From Sipunculus nudus (lineage: Eukaryota; Annelida; Sipuncula; Golfingiida; Sipunculidae): DNA of 64,000 nt. The notes under the pieces are model-generated. The model did not search any database. It saw only the letters and a list, made by a program, of their open reading frames with translations, and was not told the DNA's origin. The position numbers were made by a program, and so were the translations under genes. The number at the start of each line of letters is the position of its first letter. Position 1 is the stretch's first letter. The stretch lies in assembly GCA_026874595.1 (NCBI GenBank), contig CM049309.1, positions 95,130,723 to 95,194,722 on the forward strand, read 5' to 3'. Shown here one piece after another: positions 1-57,897 of the stretch.

Positions 1-3000
1 ATTACCTGTGTTCTCCTTGAACCAGTGTGGACTCATGATCAGTGGTATAATGAATTACCTGTGTTGTCCTTGAGCCAGTGTGGACTCATGATCAGTGGTA
101 TATCATAATGAATTACCTGTGTGGTCCTTGAACCAGTGTGGACTCATGATCAGTGGTATAATGAATTACCTGTGTTCTCCTTGAACCAGTGTGGACTCAT
201 GATCAGTGATATAATGAATTACCTGTGTTGTCCTTGAACCAGTGTGGACTCATGATCAGTGGTATATCATAATGAATTACCTGTGTGGTCCTTGAACCAG
301 TGTGGACTCATGATCAGTGGTATAATGAATTACCTGTGTTGTCCTTGAACCAGTGTGGACTCATGATCAGTGGTATATCATAATGAATTACCTGTGTTGT
401 CCTTGAACCAGTATGGACTCATGATCAGTGGTATCTCATAATGAATTACCTGTGTGGTCCTTGAACCAGTGTGGACTCATGATCAGTGGTATAATGAATT
501 ACCTGTGTTGTCCTTGAACCAGTGTGGACTCATGATCAGTGGTATAATGAATTACCTGTGTGGTCATTGAACCAGTGTGGACTCATGATCAGTGGTATAT
601 CATAATGAATTACCTGTGTTGTCCATGAACCAGTGCAGACTTATGTGTACAGTGCTACAATGAATTACCTGTGTGGTCCTTGAACCAGCGAGGACTCATG
701 TTCAGTGGTATAATAAATTACCTGTGTGGTCCTTGTACCAGCAAGGACTCATGTTCAGTGTTATCATAAATTACCTGTGTGGTCCTTGCACCAGTGTGGA
801 CTCATGATCAGTGGTATAATGAATTACCTGTGTTGTCCTTGAACCAGTGTGGACTCATGATCAGTGGTATATCATAGTGAATTACCTGTGTTGTCCATGA
901 ACCAGTGCAGACTTATGTGTACAGTGCTACAATGAATTACCTGTGTGGTCCATGAACCAGCGAGGACTCATGTTCAGTGGTATAATAAATTACCTGTGTG
1001 GTCCTTGAACCAGTGTGGACTCATGATCAGTGGTATAATGAATTACCTGTGTTGTCCTTGAACAAGTGTGGACTCATGATCAGTGGTATAATGAATTACC
1101 TGTGTGGTCATTGAACCAGTGTGGACTCATGATCAGTGGTATATCATAGTGAATTACCTGTGTTGTCCATGAACCAGTGCAGACTTATGTGTACAGTGCT
1201 ACAATGAATTACCTGTGTGGTCCTTGAACCAGCAAGGACTCATGTTCAGTGGTATAATAAATTACCTGTGTGGTCCTTGTACCAGCAAGGACTCATGTTC
1301 AGTGTTATCATAAATTACCTGTGTGGTCCTTGCACCAGTGTGGACTCATGATCAGTGGTATAATGAATTACCTGTGTTGTCCTTGAACCAGTGTGGACTC
1401 ATGATCAGTGGTATATCATAATGAATTACCTGTGTAGTCCGTTTACCAGTGCAGACATATGTGTACAGTACTTCAATGAATTACCTGCGTGGTCCTTGAA
1501 AAAGTGTGGACTCATGATCAGTGGTATATCATAATGAATTACCTGTGTAGTCCGTGAACCAGTGCAGACTTATGTGTACAGTACTTCAATGAATTACCTG
1601 TGTGGTCCTTGAACCAGCGAGGACTCATGTTCAGTGGTATAATAAATTACCTGTGTGGTCCTTGAACCAGTGTGGACTCATGATCAGTGGTATAATAAAT
1701 TACCTGTGTGGTCCTTGAACCAGTTTGGACTCATGATCAGTGGTATAATGAATTACCTGTGTGGTCCTTGTACCAGTGAGGACTCATGTTCAGTGGTATA
1801 ATAAATACCTGTGTGGTCCTTGAACCAGTATGGACTCATGATCAGTGGTATCTCATAATGAATTACCTGTGTTGTCCTTGAACCAGTGTGGACTCATGAT
1901 CAGTGGTATATCATAATGAATTACCTGTGTAGTCCGTTCACCAGTGCAGACATATGTGTACAGTACTTCAATGAATTACCTGTGTGGTCCTTGAAAAAGT
2001 GTGGACTCATGATCAGTGGTATATCATAATGAATTACCTGTGTTGTCCTTAAACCAGTGTGGACTCATGATCAGTGGTATATCATAATGAATTACCTGTG
2101 TAGTCCGTTCACCAGTGCAGACATATGTGCAGTGGTATAATAAATACCTGTGTGGTCCTTGAACCAGTATGGACTCATGATCAGTGGTATCTCATAATGA
2201 ATTACCTGTGTTGTCCTTGAACCAGTGTGGACTCATGATCAGTGGTATATCATAATGAATTACCTGTGTAGTCCGTTCACCAGTGCAGACATATGTGTAC
2301 AGTACTTCAATGAATTACCTGTGTGGTCCTTGAAAAAGTGTGGACTCATGATCAGTGGTATATCATAATGAATTACCTGTGTAGTCTGTGAACCAGTGCA
2401 GATTTATGTGTACAGTACTTCAATGAATTACCTGTGTGGTCCTTGAACCAGCGAGGACTCATGTTCAGTGGTATAATAAATTACCTGTGTGGTCCTTGAA
2501 CCAGTTTGGACTCATGATCAGTGGTATAATGAATTACCTGTGTGGTCCTTGTACCAGTGAGGACTCATGTTCAGTGGTATAATAAATACCTGTGTGGTCC
2601 TTGAACCAGTATGGACTCATGATCAGTGGTATCTCATAATGAATTACCTGTGTTGCCTTGAACCAGTGTGGACTCATGATCAGTGGTATAATGAATTACC
2701 TGTGTTCTCCTTGAACCAGTGTGGACTCATGATCAGTGATATAATGAATTACCTGTGTTGTCCTTGAACCAGTGTGGACTCATGATCAGTGGTATATCAT
2801 AATGAATTACCTGTGTGGTCCTTGAACCAGTGTGGACTCATGATCAGTGGTATAATGAATTACCTGTGTTGTCCTTGAACCAGTGTGGACTCATGATCAG
2901 TGGTATATCATAATGAATTACCTGTGTTGTCCTTGAACCAGTATGGACTCATGATCAGTGGTATCTCATAATGAATTACCTGTGTGGTCCTTGAACCAGT

Positions 3001-3727
3001 GTGGACTCATGATCAGTGGTATAATGAATTACCTGTGTTGTCCTTGAACCAGTGTGGACTCATGATCAGTGGTATAATGAATTACCTGTGTGGTTATTGA
3101 ACAAGTGTGGACTCATGATCAGTGGTATATCATAGTGAATTACCTGTGTTGTCCATGAACCAGTGCAGACTTATGTGTACAGTGCTACAATGAATTACCT
3201 GTGTGGTCCTTGAACCAGCGAGCCTCATGTTCAATGTTATCATAAATTACCTGTGTGGTCCTTGCACCAGTGTGGACTCATGATCAGTGGTATAATGAAT
3301 TACCTGTGTTGTCCTTGAACCAGTGTGGACTCATGATCAGTGGTATATCATAATGAATTACCTGTGTAGTCCGTTAACCAGTGCAGACATATGTGTACAG
3401 TACTTCAATGAATTACCTGTGTGGTCCTTGAACAAGTGTGGAATCATGATCAGTGGTATATCATAATGAATTACCTGTGTAGTCCGTGAACCAGTGCAGA
3501 CTTATGTGTACAGTACTTCAATGAATTACCTGTGTGGTCCTTGAACCAGCGAGGACTCATGATCAGTGGTATAATAAATTACCTGTGTGGTCCTTGAACC
3601 AGTGTGGACTCATGATCAGTGGTATAATGAATTACCTGTGTGGTCCTTGTACCAGCGAGGACTCATGTTCAGTGGTATAATAAATACCTGTGTGGTCCTT
3701 GAACCAGCGAGGACTCATGTTCAGTGG
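1..3727 (-). repeat. 53 bp minisatellite of HSDL2 exon 4 end plus 5' splice site
   Basis: About 65-70 tandem units (basic 53 bp, often 58 bp with an extra tatatca segment) run from the window edge into exon 4. Read on the minus strand, a unit is the last ~40 nt of exon 4 (encoding MSP[H/R]WFKDHT) followed by ACACAG|GTAATT and a short intron piece. Some units (near 668, 960, 1617, 2454, 3656) match the exon version (Arg codon). Most carry a CAC (His) codon instead. A divergent unit type with gcagacttatgtgtacag recurs, so there is higher-order structure. The array makes up intron 4 as far as visible. Small ORFs here are by-products. Confidence 0.93.
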
Positions 3728-3791
3728 GGGACTGTTGTTCAAGATGTGAGGGTTGCTGGCTTTCTTCAAATGTGGTACACAGTATTTTGAG
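3688..3791 (-). CDS. HSDL2: HSDL2 coding exon 4
   Basis: 104 bp exon, too broken up by its neighbours to show as a long ORF. The acceptor is a catcatttcag on the minus strand (AG at 3793-3792). The first base completes the split Cys codon of exon 3, and the frame reads SKYCVPHLKKASNPHILN, then NSPPLNMSPRWFKDHT, matching the HSDL2 stretch between RGTYL and the catalytic region. The exon ends ACA G| before GTATTT, a weaker donor than the GTAATT in most downstream array units. Its last ~40 bases plus the donor are the template of the 53 bp array at 1-3727. Confidence 0.93.
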
Positions 3792-6700
3792 CTGAAATGA
3801 TGAAATAATGGTACTGTAGTTTTTTTCTATTAAACATACACTCTAATACTTATCTGCATTTTAATGTCTCAGGCAGTAAGGTTGAATATTAATTTTATTG
3901 CATCATCAATATACCTTTTTCATCTTAACAAAAGTCCCCTCAGTTTTACATTCACACACTGTTCTTTAATAAACAGGTTTTCTATCTTAAAACCATATGC
4001 TAGCTTACAAAATAAGGTTTGATGTTCATCATGAGGTCGTACTTACCAGAGGTATGTTCCTCTAGCCTTGATGTTCAACATGAGGTTGTACTTACCAGAT
4101 GTATGTTCCTCTAGCCTTGGTGTTAATCATGAGGTTGTACTTACCAGAGGTATGTTCCTCTAGCCTTGATGTTCATCATGAGGTTGTACTTACCAGATGT
4201 ATGTTCCTCTAGCCTTGGTGTTAATCATGAGGTTGTACTTACCAGAGGTATGTTCCTCTAGCCTTGATGTTCATCATGAGGTTGTACTTACCAGATGTAT
4301 GTTCCTCTAGCCTTGGTGTTAATCATGAGGTTGAACTTACCAGAGGTATGTTCCTCTAGCCTTGATGTTCATCATGAGGTTGTACTTACCAGAGGTATGT
4401 TCCTCTAGCCTTGGTGTTCATCATGAGGTTGTACTTACCAGATGTATGTTCCTCTAGCCTTGATGTTCATCATGAGGTTGTACTTACCAGAGGTATGTTC
4501 CTCTAGCCTTGGTGTTAATCATGAGGTCGTACTTACCAGATGTATGTTCCTCTACCCTTGGTGTTCATCATGAGGTTGAACTTACCAGAAGTATGTTCCT
4601 CTAGCCTTGGTGTTCATCATGAGGTTGAACTTACCAGAGGTATGTTCCTCTAGCCTTGATGTTCATCATGAGGTCGAACTTACCAGAGGTATGTTCCTCT
4701 AGCCTTGGTGTTCATCATGAGGTTGTACTTACCAGAAGTATGTTCCTCTAGCCTTGGTGTTCATCATGAGGTTGAACTTACCAGAGGTATGTTCCTCTAG
4801 CCTTGGTGTTCATCATGAGGTTGTACTTACCAGAAGTATGTTCCTCTAGCCTTGGTGTTCATCATGAGGTTGTACTTACCAGAAGTATGTTCCTCTAGCC
4901 TTGGTGTTCATCATAAGGTTGTACTTACCAGAGGTATGTTCCTCTTGTCTTGATGTTCATCATGAGGTTGAACTTACCAGAAGTATGTTCCTCTAGCCTT
5001 GGTGTTCATCATGAGGTTGAACTTACCAGAGGTATGTTCCTCTAGTCTTGATGTTCATCATGAGGTTGTACTTACCAGAGGTATGTTCCTCTAGTCTTGA
5101 TGTTCATCATGAGGTTGTACTTACCAGAGGTATGTTCCTCTAGTCTTGATGTTCATCATGAGGTTGAACTTACCAGAAGTATGTTCCTCTAGCCTTGGTG
5201 TTCATCATGAGGTTGTACTTACCAGAAGTATGTTCCTCTAGCCTTGGTGTTCATCATGAGGTTGTACTTACCAGAAGTATGTTCCTCTAGCCTTGGTGTT
5301 CATCATAAGGTTGTACTTACCAGAGGTATGTTCCTCTAGTCTTGATGTTCATCATGAGGTTGAACTTACCAGAAGTATGTTCCTCTAGCCTTGGTGTTCA
5401 TCATGAGGTTGAACTTACCAGAGGTATGTTCCTCTAGTCTTGATGTTCATCATGAGGTTGTACTAACCAGAGGTATGTTCCTCTAGTCTTGATGTTCATC
5501 ATGAGGTTGTACTTACCAGAGGTATGTTCCTCTAGTCTTGATGTTCATCATGAGGTTGAACTTACCAGAAGTATGTTCCTCTAGCCTTGGTGTTCATCAT
5601 GAGGTTGAACTTACCAGAGGTATGTTCCTCTAGCCTTGGTGTTCATCATAAGGTTGTACTTACCAGAGGTATGTTCCTCTAGCCTTGATGTTCATCATGA
5701 GGTCATACTTACCGGAGGTATGTTCATCTAGCCTTGATGTTCATCATGAGGTCATACTTACCGGAGGTATGTTCTTCTATTCTTGATGTTCATCATGAGG
5801 TCATACTTACCAGAGGTATGTTCTTCTATTCTTGATGTTCATCATGAGGTCATACTTACCAGAGGTATGTTCCTCTAGCCTTGGTGTTCATCATGAGGTC
5901 ATACTTACCAGAGGTATGTTCCTCTAGCCTTGGTGTTCATCATGAGGTTGTACTTACCAGAGGTATGTTCCTCTAGTCTTGATGTTTATCATGAGGTCAT
6001 ACTTACCAGAGGTATGTTCCTCTAGCCTTGGTGTTCATCATGAGGTCAAACTTACCAGAGGTATGTTCCTCTAGGGTTGATGTTCATCATGAGGTCGTAC
6101 TTACCAGAGGTAAGTTCCTCTAGCGTTGGTGTTCATCATGAGGTTGTACTTACCAGAGGTATGTTCCTCTAGCCTTGGTGTTCATCATGAGGTTGAACTT
6201 ACCAGAGGTATGTTCCTCTAGTCTTGATGTTCATCATGAGGTCATACTTACCGGAGGTATGTTCTTCTATTCTTGATGTTCATCATGAGGTCATACTTAC
6301 CAGAGGTATGTTCCTCTAGCCTTGGTGTTCATCATGAGGTTGAACTTACCAGAGGTATGTTCCTCTAGCCTTGGTGTTCATCATGAGGTCATACTAACCA
6401 GAGGTATGTTCCTCTAGCCTTGGTGTTCATCATGAGGTTGTACTTACCAGAGGTATGTTCCTCTAGTCGTGATGTTCATCATGAGGTCATACTTACCAGA
6501 GGTATGTTCCTCTAGCCTTGGTGTTCATCATGAGGTCAAACTTACCAGAGGTATGTTCCTCTAGGGTTGATGTTCATCATGAGGTCGTACTTACCAGAGG
6601 TAAGTTCCTCTAGCCTTGGTGTTCATCATGAGGTTGTACTTACCAGAGGTATGTTCCTCTAGCCTTGGTGTTCATCATGAGGTCGTACTAACCAGAATTA

Positions 6701-9700
6701 TGTTCCTCCAGCCTTGGTGTTCATCATGAGGTCAGACTTACCAGAGGTATGTTCCTCTAGCGTTGATGTTCATCATGAGGTTGTACTTACCAGAGGTATG
6801 TTCCTCTAGCCTTGGTGTTCATCATGAGGTCGTACTTACCAGAGGTATGTTCCTCTAGCCTTGATGTTCATCATGAGGTTGTACTTACCAGAGGTATGTT
6901 CCTCTAGCCTAAGTGTTCATCATGAGGTTGTACTTACCAGAGGTATGTTCCTCTAGCCTTGGTGTTAATCATGAGGTCGTACTTACCAGAGGTATGTTCC
7001 TCTAGCGTTGGTGTTCATCATGAGGTTGTACTTACCAGAGGTATGTTCCTCTAGCGTTGATGTTCATCATGAGGTCATATTTCTTCATGGAGGTAGCCTC
7101 AGTCCCGGTCAGACTGATGGCGCTTGCATTGTTCACCAGAATGTCAATGCCACCAAACTTGTCTACAGTCTGTTCTACAGCCCTCTTCACCTGATCTTCA
7201 TTCTGGATGTCAACAATACAGGGGAGACACTTCCCTCCAGCTGCCTCCACTAAAACAGAAACATCATCAGGTAAATGATGATCAATTCAGAGATAAAACA
7301 AGGGACCTATGGGTCACGACGCTCAGCTGTTATATATGATAAAAAAATATTATTTAGAAATGAGGCACATGCTGGTTTTGTGTGGTAATAAATATAAGCT
7401 GTATTATGAGTTGTTGTTGTTTAGCTTATGTATGATTTTGATAGTACAGGGAAGAGGATTGATTTCATTTATTTTATTAACATATGGAGTACTATTGTCA
7501 CACAGATTTTGACTTGGCCATATAACTTATAAGCAGAACATATAATATAAGTGTTTAACTATTTATTAAAAAAAATTACAAATATTGTCCCAAATATAAT
7601 TTTTATAAAAAGTAATAAGAGAATCATATGATTTTTTTAAATGAAATATAACTGATATGATTATTAAAAATTATATTAAAGAATATATTCATGAATGCAT
7701 TCATGAATACATTTTGAAAGTATTTGCACGAGTATTCATATACTTTCATTTTTACCTGAATTCCTATTCTTTATGCAAGAAATTTTATAATGGAGTACAT
7801 AATCATATTCGTATTTAAATACAATTACAAAGTATTCGCACCATGTCTGGTATTTATTCAGTTTCACCAACCAATGATGTTGAGAATCCAGAATATACAA
7901 AATTCACACATTTAAATAATGATCATAACTACCTGGTTTTATGGCTTTTATTTATATTAAAAAATAACTGTAAAAAATTCATTTTGGACTAATTTCACAT
8001 CAATGTACACACTAGACACAGTAGGAAGATTAATAGATTAATAGATTAATATTATCAACTGCATCTTTGTCTATCATTAATTTCCTTCATATGATCCCTA
8101 ATGATTAGTAATGAATAATATGATTTACTTCTTTATCATTAAAATTGAACTGAAAAATGCCATAGGTGACTGCATGGTGTTATTTGGAATATGTGACATT
8201 CTACCCATCGATACAAGATTCTTATATCATCAGTAACTGCAAGTTAATTTCCTGTTATTATAAACTAACAAATTCCTTTTCTATTTTTCTTTAATTTGTT
8301 ATTAAAAACCAATAAAAATTTATTAATTTATTGTTTATTGTTATGTTGTTGGTTAAAACTACTAGATGAGTTGGGTTGGACACCTGGATCAACTGTGGCT
8401 GGCCATAAGCTGCCTGGATTCCTGTATGCCTCGCCTCAAGCGTGCATAATTTGATGAAAGGTCAACAAGGTCAACATACAGGTGACTCAAGAGGGGCTTG
8501 AGAGAGCCAAAGTCTGACAGGGTCTCATAAAAAACATTAATAAAATTTCTTTCAGCTTTCTAAACTAAAAAGCTGAAATCCTAATGTGTGCATGATATGA
8601 AAATTATATCAACAGTGCTCACAGGACACAAACGTGCCATGGTCACAGTTGGGCAAAATTTAAGGTACTAATTTTATATTTATACTAATAACTTATAAAA
8701 TTTGAAAAATTCAGAACTAATTTTGGGTATTCAATTGAATCTTGATTAAATAATGTTACATCCCTGACAAAAAAATCTCTGGCTTCAGCAATGCCCTTGT
8801 TAAGGGAGTAAATAAATTTCTTGATTTTTTACAAAGTGCATTATGTTTGGGCCCATAACTTAAAACAATTACGCAATACTGACATCATTCTGGCATGTGC
8901 ATAGAGAATGAAAAATATGTATATTATTTATGATTAAAGTCAGATCAGTGGTTTTGATATTAGGCAGTCTTGAAGTGTGACAATGGGTTTTTAATGGAAA
9001 AATGAAGTTTTTCATTTATATCTTGAAGGTATTAAGTCCTAGTGACCAAATTCTTGGCATGGTAGGGGATTTTGGAGACATCTAACTGTATGCCGAATTT
9101 AAGGAACTAAGAGCTGAAGCTGGGGAGCTGAGCTCTTGCAAACTGCATAACACTAGCTTGATGTAAACAATATGTTACATGGTGCTTGAAAACTTATTAA
9201 AATCTACAGTTTTTGATCAACTGGTTTCAAATTTTTGGTGTTAACAGTTGAAATGCTAACAAAAACATGCTGTGAAAATTAAATCCACAGTACTTAGAGG
9301 AAAAAAACGTGCCATGGTCAAAGTTGGGCAAAATTTGAGGTACCAATTTTTTATTTTTATTAATATTTTAGAAAATTTAAAAGATTTTCATCTAATTTTG
9401 GGAATACAATTTAATTTTGATTAATTAAAGTTATATTACTGGAAAAAAGGTCGATAGCTTTAACATTTTTTGTGTTAAGTGATCAAATATCTTTCCTGAT
9501 TTTTTACAAAATGCATTATGTTTGGGCCCATAACTTTTTTAAATTAATTAATACAGACATAATTTCTGGCATGTACATAGGAACTATATAGAGGAATATT
9601 TATGGTAAATATGAGGAAAAACAGATGAGTGGTTTTGATATTAGACAGTCCTGAAGTGTGAAAATAGGTTTTTAATAAAAAATTGAGGTTTTTCCTTAAT

Positions 9701-12700
9701 TTCTCAAAGGAACGAAGTTGCAAAGACCCAGTTTTCCGCTTGGTAGGAGATCTTGGGGACATCTAACATTATGCCGAATTTTGGATTCCTAGGTCTTACG
9801 GTTTCAAAACGTGCCACATCTACGGACGGACGGACGGACGGACGGACGGACGGACGGACGGACGACGGACAATGGACCACGACTATAGCTCAGATGACTT
9901 ATAGTCAGCTGAGCTAAAAATGAATCACTAGATAGAAAAATGTTAAGTGAGAATTTATAATTAATGCATTAAGGTAAACATAGATGTAAAGGGGAAGAGT
10001 AACCCAGGTGTGGCTACATTTCAATAATCAATCAAAAATGGTATGAGCCAATCCATCAAGTCAACCTTGCTGCACCAATCAAGAGAGTTTTTTTTTTACT
10101 TTTTGTTTTTTAATGGTCTCATTTTACAACTTGTTTCAAACATGACAAACATGAACAGAGCTACTGTATAAAGGTTGGTAACTGGATAATCAGAAGAGGT
10201 GGTCTTAATGACAGGTTTTACAAGTGTTACCTTCTTTGGCTGCAGTGTAGATGGTCCCTGGCAGCTTTGGGTGGGGTTCTGCTGTTTTGGCAGCAATCGC
10301 GATATTGGCCCCATCCCTGGCACACTTAAGGGCGATGGCCTTCCCAATACCGCGACTTGCTCCTGATATGAAGATGGTCTTCCCTGCCAGTGCTCTGTAA
10401 CCATCAATGAACTTAATCACTAATTATCTAATACCATTAATAGTATACATAACTGGCATTTTATTAACTAGTATTGTAATTGCTAAAATGTTATTACTTA
10501 GTTTAACTGTATTAAAATCTCTTAATTTTAGGTTTAAATATATATGTTTGACTTAAGATATACTGCATTTTGCTTTTCTTATTCAGTTATAACAAGAATA
10601 TGATCCTCTCCTTGAGTATGCTTACTCAGCACTTGAGTAAACTTACCAGGTTAGTACAGTCATACTTAACTGTTACAACGGATCCAGATGATGGACCTAC
10701 CGTGTTAGGAAGGACCTGCATATGATGATTATAAACATGTTTAAATATTGTCATGTGGAACCAAGGGACTTTGTATAAACCTCATGAGGCTGACTTATCA
10801 TGTGTATTTTATATAACATGCAGGAAAATTAAAACAGAACGTCAAGGTGATCCATCTTCAAACTTGACCGTGAATAATTTGATATGCATTAGGACTGAAG
10901 AAATTAAATTCCTGAGTTGTATACTTTTAGAGATATCCCACTCAGAAGGTCAAATATGAGAAATCTGATAAAAATTTTTAAAAAATCAGAAATTGTAGGT
11001 GGCACCCCCACTCTTGTACAGCAGTTACAGACAATCAATGCCAATATTACAGGTTTGGGTTTTATCTTGATAAAACTTGTTTAATCCAGGACAATGGATT
11101 AAACTGGGTTTTATCCAGTTTAATCCAATTTTATCCAGATTATACAGGATTTAACTGGATCAAACTAATAATCACCTTGTTAAATATAATTAAATTAACC
11201 AAAATGCTAATCTGAAAAAATAAGTTCAGAAGGTTTATTAATATATTAACAATATGTTTTATATCCAATTGGCAATTGCCTTCAGGTTCATGTATCACTG
11301 TGCATATTGGCTAGTATTCAATTTCTCAATAGGATGTATAATTTTTATAGCATCATCCTCAGCCATCAAATATTTACTCATAGTCACAGGGCAGGCAAGC
11401 ATGGTGACTTTTGCAGCCCAATTGACCTATCCATGAACTCTATATGACCATAATTGCATATTCATTCAATGAATAATCATAAGCATTGGACTAATGAGCA
11501 ACCAATCAGGTGACCATAAACATTATACAGCATCAATCATCCGACAAAAACAAAATTTGCCTAATTTGACAGAGCTCTGTCAAACAGAACCCATGTAGTG
11601 TGTTCCAGTACCCATGTTGGCATGTTTTCCGGGATATTATTTTTTATACAAAGGAGACAGTATAAAAAGTTTTAGGCTATAGTTTGCATGAGCCATTTCT
11701 CAGACTCCCAAGTAAATAATAATGTCTTACCTGGCACGTAATTCGTATGAGACAAATAATCCAGAATATTGCAAGATAGTTCATAATGACCGCGATATAT
11801 GAAACTACAGCGATACAAGTTGATGACATCAGTCAATACGAAGTCAAGCGTCATCGACCTTTGTGAAGTCATTATTAAGTCGTTAGCAGCTCACTCTCAA
11901 CATGGGCATGGAAGACCTTCTATGTAGGAGTGTTTTGGGGGCTCATTATAATAATTATGTTAAAAGGGCTGAGTGTTTGGGCTGTGGTGGATAGGTCAAT
12001 TGTCAACAACTTGCAGATTCTTTGGAGGAGGATGCCTAAATGATTTTGATCCATGACTGGCTGTCATGACTTGCTGGTTGTCAAATGGTGACCCACTTTT
12101 GCTGCTTGTGTAAACATGTCTTACCAGTTGCGAAAGGGACAAGGAATCTACTACCCAACATTCAGAGAAACCAACTTGAGCAAGATAACTTTTCAAGCAT
12201 TTTATCATTTGTGTCTGACAGGTCACCCCCACAAAATAATGGACAGCTGATACCACTCAATATCTTAGGTCATTTATGTAAAAAATGATTGGATTATGCA
12301 CATCTCTCTCAACTACAGGAGTGTATACAAGCCAAGAGGTCAAACCACGCTTATATGAAATGTCATTTTAAACAGGCCTAAGCGGTTCAGCATTTTCTAC
12401 ACTGCGAATCATAAAATGCAACTACAAGGATACTGTACACGTTGCAATGCAACATAATAATAAATCAGATAATGTATTTTTACATAGGAAGTGCTTATTT
12501 CCACTCCCCCAGGGAGTGGAAAAAAGGGAAGCTAGGAGTTACCAAACCTCATGTTAGATGGAACAGATAAGCGTTTGTTAGAATAGATATTCATTTACAG
12601 CAGCTCTATAGGATAACATTGATAGATATAAATATAAAATAAACAAGGGACCCATGGGTCACGGCGCTTAGCTGTTATATATGATAAAATAAAATGATTT

Positions 12701-15700
12701 AGAAATGAGGCACATGCTTGTTTTGTGTGGAAATAAATATAAGCTGTATTACGAGTTGTGGGTGTTTAGCTCATGTATGATTTTGATAGTATCTTTGGAG
12801 ATAGGGAAGAGGATTGATTTCATTTAATTTATTAACAAATGGAGTGCTATTGTCACACAGATTTTGACTTGGCCATATAACTTATAAGCAGAACATATAA
12901 TATAAGAGTTTAACTATTTATTAAAAATAATTACAAAATGTCCCAAATATAATTTTTTTAAAAAGTAATAAGAGAATCGTATTATTTATTAAAATAAAAT
13001 ACAACTGAAATGATTATTAAAATAATATCAAAGAATATATTCATGAATGCATTCATGAATACATTTTGAAATTATTTGCACTGGTATTCATATACTTTCA
13101 TTTTTACTTGAATTCCCATTCTTATGCAAGAAATTTTATAATGGAGTACATTCATATTTGTATTCAAATACATTTGCAAAGTATTTGCAAATGTCTGGTA
13201 TTTATTCAGTTTTCACCAAACAATGATGTTGAGAATCCAGAATATACAAAATTCACACATTTAAATAATGATCATAAGTACCTGGTTTTATGGCTTTTAT
13301 TCATATTAAAAAAAAAATAAATGTAATATATTCATTTTGGACTAATTTCACATCAATGTACACACTAGACACAGCAGGAATCTAGATTAATATTATCAAC
13401 TGCATCTTTGTCTATCATTAATTTCCTTCATATGATCCCTAATGATTAGTGATGAATAATATGATTGATTTTTTTATCATTAAAATTGAACTGAAAAATA
13501 CCATAGGTGACTGCATGGTGTTATTTGGAATACGTGACATTCTATCAATCGATACAAGATTCTTATATCATCAGTAACTGCAAGTTAATTTCCTGTTATT
13601 ATCAATTAACAAATTCCTTTTCTATTTTTCTTTAATGTGTTATTAAAATCCAATATAAATTTATTAATTTATTGTTTATTGTTATGTTGTTAGTTAAAAC
13701 TACAAGATGAGTTGGGTTGGACACCTGGATTAACTGTGGCTGGCCATAAGCTGCCTGGCTGCCGAAGTGTATGCCTCGCGTCAAGCATGCATAATTTGAT
13801 GAAAGGTCAACAAGGTCAACATACAGGTGACTCAAGAGGGGCTGGGGAGAGCTAAGGTCTGACATGATCTCATAAAAACATTAATAAAAGCTTCAATTTT
13901 GGCCAATTTCTTTCAGCTTTCTAAACTAAAACGCTGAAATCCTTATGTGTGCATGATATGAAAATTATATCAACAGTGCTCACAGGAAACAAACGTGCCA
14001 TGGTCAAAGTTGGGCAAAATTTAAGGCACTAATTTTATATTTATACTAATAACTTATATAATTTGAAAAATTCAGAACTAATTTTGGGTATTCAATTGAA
14101 TCTTGATAAAATAATGTTACATCCCTGACAAAAAATCTCTAGCTACAGCAATCCTCTTGTTAAGGGAGTAAATATATTTCTTGATTTTTTACAAAGTGCA
14201 TTATTTTTGGGCCCATAACTTAAAACAATTAAGCAATACTGACATCATTTCTGGCATATGCATAGAGAATGTATAGAAAAATATGTATATTATATATGAT
14301 TAAAGTCAGATCAGTGGTTTTGATCAATTGGTTTTTATTGGAAAAATGAAGTTTTTCATTAATATCTCGAAGGTATTAAGTCCTAGTGACCAAATTCTTG
14401 GCATGGAAGGGGATTTTGGAGACATCTAATTGTATGCCAAATTTTAGGAACTGAGAGCTGAAGCTGGGGAGCTGAGCTCTTGCAAACTGCATAACACTAG
14501 CTTGATGTAAACAACATGTTACAAAGTGCGTGAAAACTTGAACAAAATCTACAGTTTTTGATCAACTGTTTCAAATTTTTGGTGTTAAAAGACAAAATGC
14601 TAAAAAAAAACATGATGTGAAAATTAAATCCACAGTATTTACAGGAAAAAAACGTGCCATGGTCAAAGTTGGGCAAAATTTAAGGTACCAATTTTTTATT
14701 TTTGTTAATATTTCAAAAAATTTAAAAGATTTTGATCTAATTTTGGGTATACAATTTAATTTTGATTAATTAAAGTTATATTGCTGGAAAAAAAAGTCCA
14801 TAGCTTTAACATGTTTTGTGTTAAGTAATCAAATATCTTTCCTGATTTTTTACAAAATGCATCATGTTTGGGCCCATAACTTTTTTAAATTATATAATAC
14901 AGACATAATTTCTGGCACGTACATAGAAACTATATAGGGGAATATTTATGGTAAATATGAGGAAAAACAGATGAGTAGTTTTGATATTAGGCAGTCCTGA
15001 AGTGTGAAAATAGGTTTTTAATAAAAAATGGAGGTTTTACCTTAATTTCTCAAAGGAACGAAGTTGCAAAGACCCAGTTTTCGGCTTGGAAGGAGATCTT
15101 GGGGACATCTAACATTATGCCAAATTTTGGATTCCTGGGTCTTACGGTTTCAAAACGTGCCACATCTACGGACGGACGGACGACGGACAATGGACCACGA
15201 CTATAGCTCAGATGACTTATAGTCAGCTGAGCTAAAAATGAATGATATTATGCTTACCTTTGAGAAGCAAATCTATCTATTAAATAAAGTGACAATTGTC
15301 TGGAAGCACCCCATGTTACATTTATAGTTTTAATTTTTCTTTTAATCAAAGTTCTAGCAATTTTTGCCTATTAAACACCACAGTAACATCACTGAAAATG
15401 TTTAAGATGAAATCAGTAGTATGGTAAATTACTGAAACAACCTACCAGGGTACAGGTGCCAGTCCAGTTTAACTGTCTGGGCTTTACCTTGTTTTCTGAG
15501 CCAAGAGCTGATGCACCAGTCTGAGCATATGGACACAAAACCAGAGCTCACTAATGAGGTGCCAATAGTCTACTGATAAGGACTCTCAGCCAGTTGATTA
15601 AGTAATGTCCAAATGTCTTACTCTTCATGTGCTACTTTCAGTTAGTTTTCATGATCCACATATAAATTTTCAAAATGAAACAACTAGACTGAAAAATGGC

Positions 15701-43576: not shown

Positions 43577-45930
43577 CAAAGCGTCTCTGCTGTGACCCGG
43601 ATGGTTTTGTTTTGTTCTGCAGGATCCGTCTTTGTTGTATCCCGGATGGTTTTGTTTTGTTCTGCAGGATCCGTCTTTGTTGTGACCAAGGATGGTTAAT
43701 TTCTTTTGTTCTGCAGGATCCGTCTTTGTTGTGACCAAGGATGGTTAATTTCTTTTGTTCTGCAGGATCCGTCTTTGTTGTATCCCGGATGGTTTTGTTT
43801 TGTTCTACAGGATCCTTCTTTGATGTGACCAAGGATGGTTAATTTCTTTTGTTCTGCAGGATCCGTCTTTGAGGTGACCCCGGGTGGTTTTGTATTGTCC
43901 TACAGGATCCGTCTTTGTTGTGACCCCGGGTGGTTTTTTTTAAGGATCCTTCTTTGATGTGATCCAGGATGGTTTTGTTTTGTTCTGAAGGATCCGTCTT
44001 TGTTGTGACCCTGGGTGGTTTTGTATTGTCCTACAGGATCCGTCTTTGTTGTGACCCCGGGTGGTTTTGTATTGTCCTACAGGACCCGTCTTTGTTGTAT
44101 CCCGGATGGTTTTGTTTTGTTCTGCAGGATCCGTCTTTGTTGTGAACCCGGGTTTTGTTTTTTTTTCTGCAGGATCCGCCTTTGATGTGACCCCAGATGG
44201 TTTTGATTTGTTCTACAGGATCCTTCTTTGATGTGACCAAGGATGGTTAATTTGTTTTGTTCTGCAGGATCCGTCTTTGAGGTGACCCCGGGTGGTTTTG
44301 TTTTGTTCTGCAGGACCCGTCTTTGTTGTGACCCAGGGTGGTTTTGTTTTTTTCTGCAGGATCCGTCTTTGTTGTGACCCCGGGTGGTTATGTTTTGTTC
44401 TGCAGGACCCGTCTTTGTTGTGACCCAGGGTGGTTTTATTTTGTTCTACTGGATCCGTCTTTGTTGTGACCCAGGGTGGTTTTGTATTGTCCTACAGGAT
44501 CCGTCTTTGTTGTGACCCCGGGTGGTTTTGTATTGTCCTACAGGACCCGTCTTTGTTGTATCCCGGATGGTTTTGTTTTGTTCTGCAGGATCCGTCTTTG
44601 TTGTGACCCCGGGTTTTGTTTTTTTTTCTGCAGGATCCGCCTTTGATGTGACCCCAGATGGTTTTGATTTGTTCTACAGGATCCTTCTTTGATGTGACCA
44701 AGGATGGTTAATTTGTTTTGTTCTGCAGGATCCGTCTTTGAGGTGACCCCGGGTGGTTTTGTTTTGTTCTGCAGGACCCGTTTTTGTTGTGACCCAGGGT
44801 GGTTTTGTTTTTTTCTGCAGGATCCGTCTTTGTTGTGACCCCGGGTGGTTATGTTTTGTTCTGCAGGACCCGTCTTTGTTGTGACCCAGGGTGGTTTTAT
44901 TTTGTTCTACTGGATCCGTCTTTGTTGTGACCCAGGGTGGTTTTGTATTGTCCTACAGGACCCGTCTTTGTTGTATCCCGGATGGTTTTGTTTTGTTCTG
45001 CAGGATCCGTCTTTGTTGTGACCCCGGGTTTTGTTTTTCTTTCTGCAGGAAATGCCTTTGATGTGACCCCAGATGGTTTTGATTTGTTCTACAGGATCCT
45101 TCTTTGATGTGACCAAGGATGGTTAATTTGTTTTGTTCTGCAGGATCCGTCTTTGAGGTGACCCCGGGTGGTTTTGTTTTGTTCTGCAGGACCCGTTTTT
45201 GTTGTGACCCAGGGTGGTTTAGTTTTTTTCTGCAGGATCCGTCTTTGTTGTGACCCCGGGTGGTTATGTTTTGTTCTGCAGGACCCGTCTTTGTTGTGAC
45301 CCAGGGTGGTTTTATTTTGTTCTACTGGATCCGTCTTTGTTGTGACCCCGGGTGGTTTTGTATTGTTCTGCAGGATCCGTCTTTGTTGTGACCCTGGGTG
45401 GTTCTGTTTTGTTCTGCAGGATCCATCTTTGTTGTGACCCCGGGTGGTTTTGTTTTGTTCTGCAGGACCCGTCTTTGTTGTGACCCCGGGTGGTTATGTT
45501 TTGTTCTGCAGGACCCGTCTTTGTTGTGACCCAGGGTGGTTTTATTTTGTTCTACTGGATCCGTCTTTGTTGTGACCCAGGGTGGTTTTGTATTGTTCTG
45601 CAGGATCCGTCTTTGTTGTGACCCTGGGTGGTTCTGTTTTGTTCTGCAGGATCCATCTTTGTTGTGACCCCGGGTGGTTTTGTTTTGTTCTGCAGGACCC
45701 GTCTTTGTTGTGACCCAGGGTGGTTTTGTTTTGTTCTGCATGATCCGTCTTTGTTGTGACCCCCGTAGTCTTTGTTTTGTTCTGCAGGATCCGTCTTTGT
45801 TGTGACCCCGGGTGGTTTTGATCTGTTCTGCAGGATCCGTTTTTGTTGTGACCCTGGGTGGTTTTGTTTTGTTCTGCAGGATACGTCTTTGATGTGACCC
45901 CGGATGTTTTTGTTTTGTTCTGCAGGATCC
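43577..45930 (+). repeat. 46 bp minisatellite of 3' splice sites upstream of the Ly6-type gene
   Basis: About 50 units, mostly 46 bp. Each reads ...gtggttttgttttgttctgcag|gatcc and then gtctttgttgtgacccc: a T-rich tract, tgCAG and the first five bases of the downstream exon. The last unit (AG at 45924-45925) is the acceptor of the Ly6 signal-peptide exon. Multi-unit blocks repeat with a period of about 415-461 bp (near 44031, 44492, 44907 and 45322), so the array also grew in larger segments. Minus-strand ORFs of up to 245 codons are by-products of a stop-poor repeat. Confidence 0.93.
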
Positions 45931-46000
45931 AAGAATAACATGAAGATGGACGTTAGGATTATAGCGTTCCTGGCACTGGGGTTGGCCGGGACGGCTGTCA
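45926..46000 (+). CDS. Ly6-type gene, exon with start codon and signal peptide
   Basis: Acceptor tgttttgttctgcag|GATCC at 45925, start codon at 45940 after a 14 nt leader, donor GTCA|GTGAGT at 46001, ending in phase 1. Since an acceptor precedes the ATG, at least one 5' UTR exon should lie upstream, beyond the array. Confidence 0.9.
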
Positions 46001-48117
46001 GTGAGTCTGGGCATTTTTGTTTGATCACTTATCTGTTTTAAGTCACTAAGGGATACCATTTATTTAGATTATTCATTTAATATCTCCTTAATATACAGGA
46101 CTGAACCAATGCATGTAATAAATAAGCTCGCATGCTTGCAAGATTTTCGTGTTACATTGTTTGGCTTATATTTAAACTGATCTCACAAAAATTCCAATTC
46201 CTGTACGGCATACAATATGACTGCTGGTTTCAGTTTTAAATTCATGACTCTTCTTAGGATGTGCCGGTTTATAAATTTTTTGGCATATAATTATATTTTA
46301 TTGGACATTTATGTCTTGTTACGATGTGAAGCCAGTCACGTCCGTTTGAGGATGCAAGTCCTTGATATTGAAATATTAAATTATCATCAGTCCATGTTTC
46401 CTTAGAGCTGTGTTCTCTCTGTCCAGGTTTAAAGTGCTACACGTGCTCATCTACCGCCACTGCTGTGGCCAAAGGTGAATGCGGTGATCATTTTGAACCC
46501 AAAACAGATGAACTTCTCACAACTTGCAACGCAACGGCGGAGGAATTCTTCTGTCGCGTGAGTATTTAGACCATAAACCGTCCTTTAGATATCAAGACTT
46601 AGTCTTCGACCTTAAACATCCAAAAACAAGTCCAACACACCTTATGTTATGTTATGTTATGTTTGACTGACTCTCGTGAACACAAATGCAGGCAAAGTGG
46701 TTATGGTTAATTATTCAGACAGGTTATTGTGAAAATTTCTGAGAAAGAAAAATTAAACTGTGTTACTATTCTACGAGCTTCACATGTTTTATATCACATA
46801 GCGAAGTTGTTATATTATCTTGATGACTTTATGGAGTATGTCCTTGAAACTTTAACAGACAGTTTATTCAGTTGAACGTCACACTTACAGCTTCACAGTT
46901 GAACAAGACAGGAGCCAGTGCCTGATGACATTAAGGTTACACATTCCGGTTGTACACACAGTTTCACATATACTAACAAAACTCTGGTAGGAGGCAGCTC
47001 CTGGTTCACAATGATTGTCATAACTCTTCTGGTTATTATTTGAGAGGGAAGTCCATTACTTACTTATATATTATTCCAAGCTTGCAACCAGTTCCATCTT
47101 AGTGTGCCACACGTCCGCCATGTCCTACAAGGGTGGTCAGATTTGCACGAGGTGTACATCTCTGTCTCTTAGTTCTTCTCTCTCCTATGTCTGGATTTCC
47201 AATCCTTGTATACACATCACTGGTCATTATTGCTTTGATAACTAATCAGCTTGAATGCTTTGATTAACTGCAGTAGCATTAAGTGTGAACATCTCTCAGC
47301 CTGACTGGCACTATAAATAAAGGTTTGATTTTCTTTAAAAGATTCAATTGCCATTCCCTGAACTCCATGTGTCTTCCTGCTTGAACATAGTTTGCCTACA
47401 CTGAACTGCTAATTATATCTACAGGTAATTAGCCATACAGATACATATTTAAAATTACAAAGAATCTTATGCACACTTTCATACATTTACAACCAAGTAA
47501 TAAATTGGTAATAACACGTCTGTCATATTTATACAATGATTCGAAACTATATAGAATGTTTAAAGCTGTTTCCCAGACTAGAGTTCCCTTGAACAGTTTT
47601 CAGGAATCATGCAAACTAAGGCGTCATATCGATATTCTGTAATAATCAGGTGACCCTCATGGTATGCTAAACGGTTGTCCTGTACCATAACAGAGACTGG
47701 CCTCCGTCGTCTCTGAAAGGAATATCAACTCGTGACCACGACAAGCAAAAATATAAATCAAAACCGTTGTGCATTCATTTATGTGTGGTAGTTGACGTCA
47801 AGGTCCGTTGTTCTACCAAAAGGGAAAAATGTGATCTATGACCTTCCATTCAAGTAGCCCAAAGAGTTGCTTCTCTGTCGATTTGTGCATTCTGTGCTAG
47901 TTAAGCTGTAATGATAAAAGTTGTTATTTTGAAACGTACAGCGGGCCTGGACATATTCTGACGTATATTATATGTCCTATATAGGCCGAAGAGCTTCAAC
48001 GGCTGCTTCTCTCTCTCTGTTGGATCATGATAGCCGAGCACAAAAGGTGTTTCCTGTGAGTGTGCGCTCTCTCTGTCTTGGAAAAATGACAGCCGAGTGC
48101 TGACTGTGATGTTAGCA

Positions 48118-48156: not shown

Positions 48157-50057
48157 GAGATGTAAAAACTTCTTTACATCAAGAAAGGCGCCTAATCTTC
48201 GCTTATATGAGGAATGTTATCTCAGTTTTTATCCTAAAAGTTAAAAGAAAATATAGATTTTCAGTGGGATACTGTCATAATAAGATATGTACAAATATTT
48301 TTGCATTTTTTTATGGCGCTGCGGTCACGGTAAGAAATTTATATACCGGTATGTTTTCATTGAAGACCTGGCGAGTGATGATTTTAATATTTGCGAACCT
48401 GAAAGGGACGCTGGGGCATCCAGGTTTTCGATTAATTTTATTGGTAACTATTATTTGACGTATAAATAATAGGTTGATGAAGACATGAACGATGAATTTA
48501 ATGGACGTTAAAAGGAAGGAAACTATTCCTGGAGAAAGAAACGGAAATATGTGTCGCGGACCGGGGGTAAGGCAGGTCCGCCCCATGTCACAGGAAGAAC
48601 CCAAGACAAAGTGGATGGATGAACTTTATTCTGAAGAAGAAAGACCGTGGTCAGCTTGTTGCCAACAAGAGGAGCAAGGCTGGACTGACGTGACAGTTCC
48701 GAGACCTCGTAGACGTTCCGGAGCTGTCACGCCTCATTGCCCAAACCACCCCAAAACCGGTCCGACAAAACATCGTATTCTTTCTCCCAGGATTTTCGTC
48801 GGCCACGTATGCAGGCCATACTACGCAAGGGAAACCGTTTAATGACCCTTGACCAGGAGGGACTTTTCTCGAGTGTCACTCCGGATTGACAGACAAAATG
48901 AAAAAAAAAACATGGGGGTTTATTTCCCCGTGTTACATATGCATACCATGTTAGTAGCAGAAGCGGACAAAAGTGAAGCCGAAACCGTTTTTTAAACCGT
49001 ATAAGACCAATTTTGAGTCCTGGAAACCCCGCCGCCACCCTACCCCCATTCCTTTACCGGAAATGCTGACCTTGTATTAGGTCCTGTCATTTGTGCCCCT
49101 GAGTTGAACCCCTCCTTTTCATAAAGTGAGAGTTACGTGTTTTTCACATTTACTGACCGCGCTCGAGGGCCAGAGCCTGGGTCAAATGTCAGACCAAACA
49201 TGCTTGAATCCCTCACTGTAAGCTTGGTTTATTCATTTGCACAATATAATTCTTAATTCTGTGCTGCATTAGACCGCACAGGCAATCCGGTCTTTGCTTA
49301 GGCAGTTCGGCTGTTTTCGGTGGAAACCTCCATGCAGATCATAAAAAAAAATGTAAAAATCGCTCAAAATTAAGTATGCATTAAAATTATTTATTCTCCG
49401 ATGCAAAACAAACAACATGGTTAAAATAATAAATTGCAAAACATTATCCAAAGGTTTGCATAAATGCTTTTCAAAATTGCTTCATTCTAATGTGTTATCT
49501 TAGGCGGAACGAACTGAAATGATTTGTGGTTGAATAATCAAACAGTAATTTCTATGTCAATTAAAATAAAGATAAGGGTAAAAACTATTACGACCTGGAC
49601 TATATGAACCAGACTAGGAAATAAAACTGTAGGACACAAGATTAGTTCTGGCAACACCTTGATATTCGTCTACAATTTATCAAGGATTATTCAATTATAA
49701 ATCAGTATAAATCTTTAAGGAATCTGTGTTTGATAAGTCTCTTGGGAGAGGGTTATTCTTGTGACGAAAGCTAGGACAGCCAACTTTTAGTTACATTTTC
49801 TTTTCATAACATAGTTACTTTCCAGAAATTTCGGGATTAACATATCCATTTATAATTGCTTTCAGAAAGAGAAGACTGGGGTTAATTCAGCGTGGAACAG
49901 GGTGACACGGAGCTGCGCAAGGGAGTGTGAAACCCGGAACGTCGCCTACATCAAGCGAGTCACGTGTTGTAAAACTGACATGTGTAACGGCGCAGGCGCG
50001 GTCACCTTTGGGGTGATGACCATGACCTTTGCTCTCATGTCAGCAATTTGCTTTTAA
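45940..50057 (+). CDS. Ly6/uPAR (three-finger) GPI-anchored protein, complete
   Basis: Three coding exons, 45940-46000, 46427-46557 and 49866-50057, join in phase into 127 codons plus stop. Residues 1-21 are a signal peptide (MKMDVRIIAFLALGLAG...). The mature chain starts LKCYTCSS, the classic Ly6 opening, and has ten domain cysteines ending with TCCKTDMCNG (the CC-x3-C-N signature). An N-glycosylation site N-A-T lies in CNATAEE. A hydrophobic tail (AVTFGVMTMTFALMSAICF) follows the last cysteine, as expected for GPI attachment. Such proteins sit on the cell surface or act as receptor modulators. The exact ortholog is unknown. A polyadenylation signal aataaa lies at 50457-50462. Upstream is the 3' splice-site array. 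Confidence 0.93.
46427..46557 (+). CDS. Ly6-type gene, middle exon
   Basis: Acceptor tgttctctctgtccag at 46426 and donor CGC|GTGAGT at 46558. Encodes the first half of the three-finger domain with five cysteines (KCYTC, GEC, TTC, FFC). It starts in phase 1 and ends in phase 0. Confidence 0.93.
46558..49865 (+). other. Ly6-type gene, intron 2
   Basis: 3.3 kb intron. It holds a (CT)n tract (about 48118-48150) and an unexplained 116-codon open stretch at 48492-48842 (Pro/Arg-rich, with RRRSGAV and TKHRILSPRIFVG). Coding-like fragments in other frames follow to about 49070. The latter resembles a decayed retroelement ORF but is not assigned. No arrays at the exon edges here. Confidence 0.55.
49866..50057 (+). 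CDS. Ly6-type gene, last coding exon
   Basis: Acceptor ttataattgctttcag at 49865. 63 codons plus TAA, with five domain cysteines (SCARECE, TCCKTDMC) and a hydrophobic C-terminus. Intact frame. Confidence 0.93.
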   Translation, partial: KEKTGVNSAWNRVTRSCARECETRNVAYIKRVTCCKTDMCNGAGAVTFGVMTMTFALMSAICF

Positions 50058-50579: not shown

Positions 50580-51660
50580 GGAAACTAGGGACCAATAGGT
50601 CTGGACGCTCAGCTGAATTTCTCTATAAGGACATTTTTATGAGCTTTTCAACATGTGGGTCCTGTGACCTTCACCCTTGACGTTGTGGCTTAAAAATCTG
50701 CGGAGTTACTATTCTTGAATTTACACCATTCTGATTTTAACATTCATTAACCCATTCTTGACATAACTAGAATACATATATACAGGTCAGGAAGGGTCCC
50801 CCAAAAGGACCATGGATTTCCAGTGCGGTCTGAGAGATGCTTGAAAATAAATTGAAGGACCTGATTACATGCAGAGACAGACGGAACTGACTCAAACAGT
50901 ATTTAAACAACTAACAAAGATGATATAAGGTTAATCAGCGTTAATTCTATATAAAGGCATAATAACATCTGATGTGTTAAACTGTATGCCTGGTCAGCAA
51001 ATAAATCGACAACATGACCTTGACTTTTGAATGTCAAAATCAACACGATTCTTCCCCTATTGTTAGGTGATCCATATGTGAAAGATGGAAGGTTTGGGAT
51101 TAAATGTTTGGTTTATAAAGCATCCATAATCTTTATAAAGATGTGGGTCTTGTTACCTTCACCTTTGACCTCAAGACCTCAAAATCGAAATGATTCCTAT
51201 TTCAGTGGTGAGCCATTAATAAATCATGTTTGAAACCAATCTGTCTACCAGTTATCATTTATAAACCAATTTGTGAACGGATTGGCCCTGTGACCTTGAC
51301 CTTTGACCCTGTGACACCAAAATAAAAAACAATCTCTCCTTTATTGGCAGATGAGCCACATGTGGAGGATGGAAGATTTGTTAAAGTGATTAAAGTTTGG
51401 CTTAAAATGCACCCACAATCTTTTTATAGAAGTGAGGCTTGTGACCTTGAACTATGACCTCATGAACCCAAAATCAATAAGTTTATTACTTTAGTGGTGG
51501 GTAATCTGTAAGTCGAATTTCAAACCAATATTTCAATCCGAACTGGAGTTATAATTCAGAAACAAATTTGTGGACGGACGGACGAACAGAAAGTAAGACG
51601 AATAGACGTACGACAGGGTGATCACTATAGGGCACCTGCTTATAATCAATAAACAAACCA
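50580..51660. repeat. Dispersed repeat with gaccttgacctttgacc motifs
   Basis: Starts gggaccaatagg.ctggacgctcagctg, similar to the 2.6 kb repeat start. It has diverged internal repeats of (t)gtgaccttcacc/tttgacct..aaaatc (about 50660, 51150, 51290, 51440) and ends in an acggacggacgaacag tract (about 51570-51590) and a gatcactatagggca block. Non-coding. Confidence 0.55.
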
Positions 51661-53884: not shown

Positions 53885-54468
53885 GACCATCCGGCATCAA
53901 TGTTATTTACTTTGCACCGCAGGCCCATTGGCATCAATGATATTTTGGGTCACCAGCATCAATGTTATTTTGTTAAGACAATCAGGTAAACGGCATCAAT
54001 GATATTTTGTTAATATCATCAGGTCCCCGGCATCAATGTTATTTTTATGTACACCATCAAGTCACCGACATCAATGTTATTTTGTTTAGACCATCAGGTC
54101 CCCGGAATCAATGTTATTTTGTTTAGACCATCAGGTCACCGGCATCAATGATATTTTGTGTACACCATCAGGTCATCAGCATCAATTATATTTTGTGTAA
54201 ACCATCAAGTCACCGACATAAATGTTATTTTGTTTAGACCATCAAGTCACCGGCATCAATGATATTTTGTTTAGACCATCAGGTCACCGGCATCAATGAT
54301 ATTTTGTTTAGACCATCAGGTCACCGGCATCAATGATATTTTGTGTACACCATCAAGTCACCAGCATCAATGTTATTTTGTGTACACCTTCAGGTCACCG
54401 ACATCAATGATATTTTTTTAGACCATCAGGACACCGATATCAATGTTATTTTGTTTATACATCATCAG
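53885..54468 (+). repeat. 37 bp minisatellite of 3'-splice-like units
   Basis: About 15 units. Each reads ..tattttgtttagaccatcag|gtcaccggcatcaatg: a T-rich tract, catCAG and ~16 downstream bases. The last unit runs into tttatacatcatcag|gccatatggggatcaag, the acceptor side of the signal-peptide-like exon at 54469. Same layout as the array before the Ly6 exon. Confidence 0.82.
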
Positions 54469-56038: not shown

Positions 56039-56039
56039 T

Positions 56040-57897
56040 AAGCCATTACATGAACTTGGTGCGTTGATACTTGATCATGGTTACATTATACTTACTCATT
56101 ACATGAACTTGGTGCGTTGATACTTGATCATGGTTACATTATACATACTCATTACATGAATTTGGTGCGTTGATACTTGATCATGGTTACATTATACATA
56201 CTCATTACATGAACTTGGTGCGTTGATACTTGATCATGGTTACATTATACATACTCATTACATGAACTTGGTGCGTTGATACTTGATCATGGTTACATTA
56301 TACATACTCACTACATGAATTTGGTGCGTTGATACTTGATCATGGTTACATTATACATACTCATTACATGAATTTGGTGCGTTGATACTTGATCATGGTT
56401 ACATTATACATACTCATTACATGAATTTGGTGCGTTGATACTTGATCATGGTTACATTATACATACTCATTACATGAATTTGGTGCGTTGATACTTGATC
56501 ATGGTTACATTATACATACTCATTACATGAACTTGGTGCGTTGATACTTGATCATGGTTACATTATACATACTCATTACATGAAATTGGTGCGTTGATAC
56601 TTGATCATGGTTACATTATACATACTCATTACATGAACTTGGTGCGTTGATACTTGATCATGGTTACATTATACATTCTCATTACATGAATTTGGTGCGT
56701 TGATACTTGATCATGGTTACATTATACATACTCATTACTTGAATTTGGTGCGTTGATACTTGATCATGGTTACATTATACATACTCATTACATGAACTTG
56801 GTGCGTTGATACTTGATCATGGTTACATTATACATACTCATTACATGAATTTGGTGCGTTGATACTTGATCATGGTTACATTATACATACTCATTACATG
56901 AATTTGGTGCGTTGATACTTGATCATGGTTACATTATACATACTCATTACATGAACTTGGTGCGTTGATACTTGATCATGGTTACATTATACATACTCAT
57001 TACATGAATTTTGTGCGTTGATACTTGATCATGGTTACATTATACATACTCATTACATGAATTTGGTGCGTTGATACTTGATCATGGTTACATTATACAT
57101 ACTCATTACATGAATTTGGTGCGTTGATACTTGATCATGGTTACATTATACATACTCATTACATGAATTTGGTGCGTTGATACTTGATCATGGTTACATT
57201 ATACATACTCATTACATGAATTTGGTGCGTTGATACTTGATCATGGTTACATTATACATACTCATTACATGAACTTGGTGCGTTGATACTTGATCATGGT
57301 TACATTATACATACTCACTACATGAATTTGGTGCGTTGATACTTGATCATGGTTACATTATACATACTCATTACATGAATTTGGTGCGTTGATACTTGAT
57401 CATGGTTACATTATACATACTCATTACATGAACTTGGTGCGTTGATACTTGATCATGGTTACATTATACATACTCATTACATGAATTTGGTGCGTTAATA
57501 CTTGATCATGGTTACATTATACATACTCATTACATGAATTTGGTGCGTTGATACTTGATCATGGTTACATTATACATACTCATTACATGAACTTGGTGCG
57601 TTGATACTTGATCATGGTTACATTATACATACTCATAACATGAATTTGGTGCGTTGATACTTGATCATGGTTACATTATACATACTCATTACATGAATTT
57701 GGTGCGTTGATACTTGATCATGGTTACATTATACATACTCATTACATGAATTTTGTGCGTTGATACTTGATCATGGTTACATAATACATACTCATTACAT
57801 GAATTTGGTACGTTGATACTTGATCATGGTTACATTATACATACTCATTACATGAACTTGGTGCGTTGATACTTGATCATGGTTACATTATACTTAC
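56040..57897 (-). repeat. 53 bp minisatellite with a donor-like GTATGT per unit
   Basis: About 35 very uniform units; on plus, tactcattacatgaatttgg then tgcgttgatacttgatcatg and gttacattataca. On the minus strand each unit has AATGA|GTATGT. The rightmost unit, next to unique sequence, has CTGAATGA|GTAAGT (57892-57897), a consensus donor. It could be another donor array, but the sequence to its right is not a convincing coding exon. Unit identity is very high, so expansion is recent. Confidence 0.85.

Follow-up and report, generated by a model that had tools for sequence, protein, structure and literature searches.

Three tandem arrays in a 64-kb window of contig CM049309.1 (GenBank assembly GCA_026874595.1, positions 95,130,723 to 95,194,722, forward strand; "the window" denotes this whole stretch of 64,000 nucleotides) repeat a unit that is itself an exon-intron junction. 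Two of them, arrays A and B, occupy consecutive introns of one minus-strand HSDL2-like gene, and the third, array C, ends at the first coding exon of a Ly6/QVR-like gene. We consider it probable that all three are minisatellites of the mirage type, as such arrays are called in amphioxus, and that they have grown as nearly neutral intron sequence hidden by splicing. A preliminary description of this DNA had held that the arrays at 1-3727, 4019-7079 and 43577-45930 repeat the junction of an exon edge and that two of them lie in consecutive introns of one gene. Unit anatomy and homology-backed exon edges confirm the former, and the placement of arrays A and B in the HSDL2-like gene bears out the latter. 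Tandem arrays in the window were listed with Tandem Repeats Finder, and all six arrays named in the preliminary description are present in that list, together with others. The features that carry the argument are as follows (positions in the window).

1-3727, minus strand: array A, 53-bp unit, about 68 copies, running past the left edge of the window
3688-3791, minus strand: HSDL2-like exon 4, with donor CAG|GTATTT; its final 40 nt form the copy of array A nearest the exon
4019-7079, minus strand: array B, 49-bp unit, 62 copies
7036-7249, minus strand: HSDL2-like exon 3, short-chain dehydrogenase, identified by homology
10231-10394, minus strand: HSDL2-like exon 2, with no array at either boundary
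16727-16742, minus strand: possible exon 1 (ATG, then donor), without homology support and with its end uncertain by 1 base
43577-45930, plus strand: array C, 46-bp unit, about 51 copies
45926-46000, plus strand: Ly6/QVR-like first coding exon, its signal peptide judged by eye
46427-46557, plus strand: Ly6/QVR-like exon 2, ordinary splice sites
49866-50057, plus strand: Ly6/QVR-like exon 3, up to the stop codon, ordinary splice sites

The homology supporting the exon edges of the HSDL2-like gene is strong. When exons 3 and 4 are joined across array B, the predicted protein (EAAGGKCLPC...RGTYLCSKYCVPHLKKASNPHILNNSPPLNMSPRWFKDHT) aligns to HSDL2 with no gap (PDB 3kvo, E 4e-43), which supports both sides of the array-B intron, and addition of exon 2 (10394-10231) yields the Pfam adh_short domain (E 5e-27). 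The donor of exon 4 is supported by an HSDL2 match that extends almost to the end of that exon, the following exon lying outside the window. The array A unit joins the 3'-terminal 40 nt of exon 4 to 13 nt of intron with the donor CAG|GTAATT; 68 CAG|GT donors are in view, and the GT is intact in all 67 full units. Array B is made up of 62 segments of exactly 49 nt, each containing the end of exon 3 and a donor (CTG|GTAAGT), such that the unit comprises the last 40-44 nt of the exon and 5-9 nt of the intron, the split being ambiguous owing to shared bases. Array B accounts for 3,017 nt of the 3,244-nt intron that holds it, which leaves about 227 nt, and the acceptor of this intron (TTTCAG|CTC) is not part of the array. 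Inspection by eye also revealed that HSDL2-like exon 2 is flanked by a dispersed repeat, present in two long copies that resemble each other (7300-9900 and 12650-15240).

Array C repeats the opposite kind of junction. Its unit is composed of 41 nt from the 3' end of an intron, including the pyrimidine tract and CAG, and five exonic nucleotides (GATCC), and it contains a strong acceptor (TTGTTTTGTTCTGCAG|G), the last AG of the array opening the first coding exon of the Ly6/QVR-like gene at 45926. The AG is intact in 45 of the 50 full units. The sequence on either side of the array is non-repeat (AAAGC before, AAGAATAAC after), as expected if a single segment of 41 intronic and 5 exonic nucleotides had been duplicated. 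Homology support for this exon edge is moderate: the Pfam QVR match (E 2e-5) spans the whole model, yet its 26.0 bits fall just short of the curated cutoff (27.3), and the matches of the predicted protein to three-finger proteins in PDB are weak (best E 0.005).

Each unit was compared with 1,000 versions of itself shuffled base by base, a procedure that preserves base counts only, for nine arrays per signal. The best donor of the array B unit was equalled or surpassed in 0.5% of the shuffles and the acceptor of array C in 0.4%, and these two signals are clearer than the donor of array A (4.6%), which is weak when taken alone, each signal having been tested in nine arrays. In the array C unit, by comparison, the best donor was no better than 39% of shuffles.

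Use of any donor other than the one nearest the exon would be expected to damage the HSDL2-like protein. In array B, all 61 distal donors lead to an in-frame stop: the reading runs ...RGTYLW and terminates at a TAA contributed by the donor that has been skipped. In array A, translation would stop within the retained copies for 66 of 67 distal donors; the first distal donor adds 52 nt and thus shifts the frame, and the result would be decided by the next exon, which the window does not include. As judged from the sequence, only the exon-proximal donor fits the HSDL2 frame in either array. Mean variability at codon positions 1, 2 and 3 was 0.052, 0.037 and 0.025 in array B and 0.073, 0.099 and 0.061 in array A; third positions are the least variable in both, indicating that the exonic copies do not behave as coding sequence. 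Coding use of the copies was therefore rejected, both on these grounds and on the stops and frame shift that distal donors produce. If translation starts at 45940, the extra copies of array C would belong to the 5' untranslated region; since the array holds 32 ATGs, use of an interior acceptor would introduce upstream starts instead of disrupting the protein.

These data suggest how the arrays may have arisen. A short tandem duplication would first cross an exon-intron boundary, and the duplicate would then expand on the intron side by unequal exchange or slippage. As long as splicing took place at the exon-proximal copy, the mRNA would be left unchanged, and tens of copies, splice site included, could persist as nearly neutral intron sequence. 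We infer both the mode of expansion and the use of the exon-proximal site from the arrangement of the copies. The preliminary description had likewise proposed near-neutral expansion invisible to the mRNA, and this proposal is supported by the predicted frame, which only the exon-proximal donor keeps, and by the lack of codon-position constraint. A likely reason for the choice of that copy would be that exon definition beside a long intron favours the nearest of several donors of similar strength. A survey of alternative splicing reports that, of near-equal donors, the one nearest the exon is chosen when the flanking introns are long and the one nearest the acceptor when they are short (PMC9225289). 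Array B, where 56 of the 62 units carry a donor scoring 10.6 bits, as does the exon edge (scores are from a coarse matrix), is long and its donors are near-equal, and it therefore fits the exon-nearest choice that the survey describes beside long introns.

Several observations weigh against this explanation. In array A, the donor next to the exon (CAG|GTATTT, at 3687) scores 5.6, versus 8.6 for the CAG|GTAATT present in 63 of the 67 full units, and in the same survey the stronger donor is reported as dominant in 86% of events (PMC9225289); a weaker donor at the functional place is a puzzle. Without array B, moreover, its intron would measure only about 227 nt, and in so short an intron the wrong copy might have been preferred, through intron definition, while the array was beginning to grow. 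The pattern of variation among copies raises further difficulties. The donor is the most constant 9-nt window of the array A unit (rank 1 of 53 by all three measures), a constancy that plain neutrality does not predict, but exchange within the array means that few independent events lie behind it, and we regard it as a lead. No variation pattern is common to arrays A and B: intronic columns vary more than exonic ones in array B (0.097 versus 0.025-0.052) and less in array A (0.045 versus 0.061-0.099), and the exon-derived part of array B is quieter than simple drift suggests. Depending on the measure, the array B donor takes rank 5-9 among the 49 windows of its unit, and the array C acceptor rank 10-18 among 46. 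The indication of selection on splice sites is suggestive and confined to array A. Differences from the exon-proximal unit did not rise steadily with distance in arrays A, B or C, and no clear age gradient from the exon was seen. Distant units of array B differ somewhat more from one another (3.3 at lag 1 versus 4.2 at lag 30), and array C has a higher-order period of about 9-10 units.

The preliminary description had extended the junction reading to three further arrays, which were located as follows.

31152-32255, no strand assigned: 61-bp array, junction claim unsupported
53948-54464, no strand assigned: 37-bp array, junction claim unsupported
56044-57902, no strand assigned: 53-bp array with 97% matches, junction claim unsupported

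The arrays at 31, 53/54 and 56 kb did not hold up as junction arrays, as their splice signals are not clearly above those of shuffled units and coding evidence is lacking. The best donors of the three units were equalled in 27%, 22% and 19% of 1,000 shuffles, respectively, and the best acceptors in 10%, 12% and 99.9%. Both the donor and the acceptor readings were inspected by eye and discarded, and the GTATGT donor that the earlier reading of the 56-kb array requires is not the best-scoring donor of its unit. Among 20 open frames picked from 137 for a Pfam search, a sample that included the frames near these arrays only in part, no family was found beside the three arrays; four of the 20 frames had matches, all to mobile-element families. 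Within the window, the putative short peptide beside the 31-kb array recurs only in copies of that array and at weak chance places, and the one beside the 54-kb array at a single weak chance place. All three arrays may lie at real junctions of genes that are not visible here.

We also estimated how often arrays would meet junctions by chance, by circularly shifting the nine arrays against 12 junctions of the HSDL2-like and Ly6/QVR-like genes with a tolerance of 5 bp; the donor of exon 1, which is without homology, is one of the 12. Three arrays have a junction in their terminal unit, versus 0.166 expected (the mean over circular shifts), and only 6 of 12,800 shifts reached three (4 of 9,143 in another run). 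The count was still 6 of 12,800 when the exon 1 donor was omitted; without the array-B donor, 84 of 12,800 shifts reached the remaining two, and with the eight internal junctions only, 52 of 12,800 reached two. Such placement is unlikely by chance within the window, although the test is post hoc and two of the three arrays belong to one gene. Moreover, the finding was picked for looking unusual, and the shift figures therefore overstate its significance. Nor do the exon-edge start and intron-side position of the arrays add evidence, since both follow from the duplication itself. The main evidence is the anatomy of the units, not the statistics.

The same count bears on an alternative raised in the preliminary description, namely that duplication is targeted to junctions. 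We would add, as an example, a transcription- or R-loop-linked process at exon ends that seeds arrays preferentially at splice sites. In its favour, three of nine arrays coincide with three of the 12 junctions known in these 64 kb, where about 0.17 would be expected, and two of the three are in consecutive introns. Survival bias and post-hoc choice can explain that count too, only two genes are involved, and the other six arrays are not at a known junction. Nor was a motif shared between units seen: when eight consensuses were compared with the window outside their own arrays, only exact matches of 11-12 nt were found. Nothing in these data separates targeting from differential survival, and we consider targeting improbable.

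Slightly less probable still is that the arrays are intermediates of intron gain or are built of dual-specific AG|GT sites, each unit serving as both donor and acceptor and the array splicing itself out in whole units. Intron gain by tandem duplication (PMC4974935) and dual-specific sites in tandem repeats (PMC10809524) have been documented, and AG|GT is present in 67 of 67 full units of array A. That unit, however, is without a good acceptor (the best scores 2.9 and is not at AG|GT, versus 5.3-12.6 for six acceptors of the two genes), the units of array B read CTG|GT or CCG|GT with the intron acceptor outside the array, and array C has AG|GA without a donor. A regulatory role, with redundant sites selected as decoys or buffers or tuning productive splicing through nonsense-mediated decay, is the least probable of the three: the GT preserved in every one of the 129 full units of arrays A and B, the AG in 45 of 50 in array C, the unusually constant donor of array A and the frame-breaking effect of distal donors would suit it, but the lower ranks of the array B donor and array C acceptor do not, and homogenisation within arrays leaves few independent mutations from which to read selection.

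Other repeats and mobile elements are present in the window. A 41-bp minisatellite at 18136-19563 reappears at 26266-29050, with a long terminal repeat (LTR)-type retroelement between the two blocks; the direct repeats of this element are about 5.78 kb apart and 90-95% alike in five stretches, and the element was probably inserted into the 41-bp array. Its segment at 22393-25166 encodes an integrase zinc-binding domain upstream of reverse transcriptase and RNase H, an order that is unusual for Ty3/gypsy-type elements and that we take to be typical of the Gmr1 group. A 33-bp unit, its length divisible by three, is repeated about 120 times at 37939-41894, where two open frames reach 905 and 643 codons. 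At 51280-51600 there are stretches like TGACCTTGACCTTTGACC with a GGACGGACGG run behind them; such sequence is common in mollusc genomes and would weakly suggest a mollusc rather than a lancelet. A protein search gave 104 candidates by shared words, none of them at E 0.001, a 29-nt probe from a repeat matched nothing in the viral_contigs and genome_contigs collections, and no paper on the repeat motif was found in the literature searched. An open frame at 61844-62380 encodes a reverse transcriptase (Pfam RVT_1, E 8e-14), which we read as the non-LTR type.

If mirage-type growth is what arrays A, B and C record, and the interior sites are truly ignored, then at least 62 consecutive, near-identical donors of which one is usable would constitute an unusually clean test of splice-site choice, to which array A would add a weaker donor at the functional place. 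A broader proposal, which we hold to be unlikely, is that mirages occur generally in animal genomes with long introns, beyond the lancelets, and that their growth is self-stabilising: by lengthening the intron, an array would cause exon definition to favour the exon-proximal site, and further expansion would be shielded in turn. If that were true, such arrays would be natural experiments on site choice by the spliceosome, their donor core being more constant than the remainder of the unit. Mirages have also been proposed as raw material for new introns (PMC3087553), and should the species studied here not be a lancelet, their known range would widen.

The preliminary description knew of no named class for these arrays, which proved mistaken. 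In amphioxus, minisatellite-like tandem copies of an exon-intron boundary, named mirages, have been described in Adh3, the globin genes BflGb6 and BflGb9, troponin C and PGBD5; as these reports present them, they lie at the 5' or 3' ends of introns, carry splice signals in many copies, seemingly do not disturb splicing and have been linked to new introns (PMC3087553, PMC3902484). Like mirages, the units of arrays A, B and C span the exon and the intron of one junction, with 40-44 nt of exon in A and B and 5 nt in C, and their lengths of 53, 49 and 46 bp fall within the reported range (10-72 bp in Adh3 and 150-160 bp in globin; PMC3087553). Length instability between haplotypes or tissues counts as a further mark of mirages. 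Unlike the mirages of BflGb6, for which 3-6 copies are reported, arrays A and B have at least 68 and 62 units, respectively, in consecutive introns. Internal tandem repeats at exon-intron boundaries, averaging four units of 30 bp, are also reported in human segmentally duplicated genes, where they occur in recent paralogs and can create new introns or alternative transcripts (PMC2812944). Our arrays resemble these in being minisatellites at exon-intron boundaries and differ from the reported cases in having dozens of units and, in view, no distal donor that keeps the frame. They share with intron gain by tandem genomic duplication the duplicated segments that cross a boundary and, in array A, the AG|GT units, but in the two arrays compared, B and C (the acceptor of the array A intron being outside the window), the introns are not delimited by two copies of the repeat, the acceptor of B lying outside the array and C being without a good donor. 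Work on mollusc hemocyanin (PMC7931591) and amphioxus huntingtin (PMC2206037) treats intron gain and tandem repeats, and not junction arrays. Among the papers listed in our literature searches, judged by title and the opening lines of the abstract, none concerned junction-spanning minisatellites in molluscs. Arrays A, B and C are thus a striking case of a class that has already been described, and not a new class.

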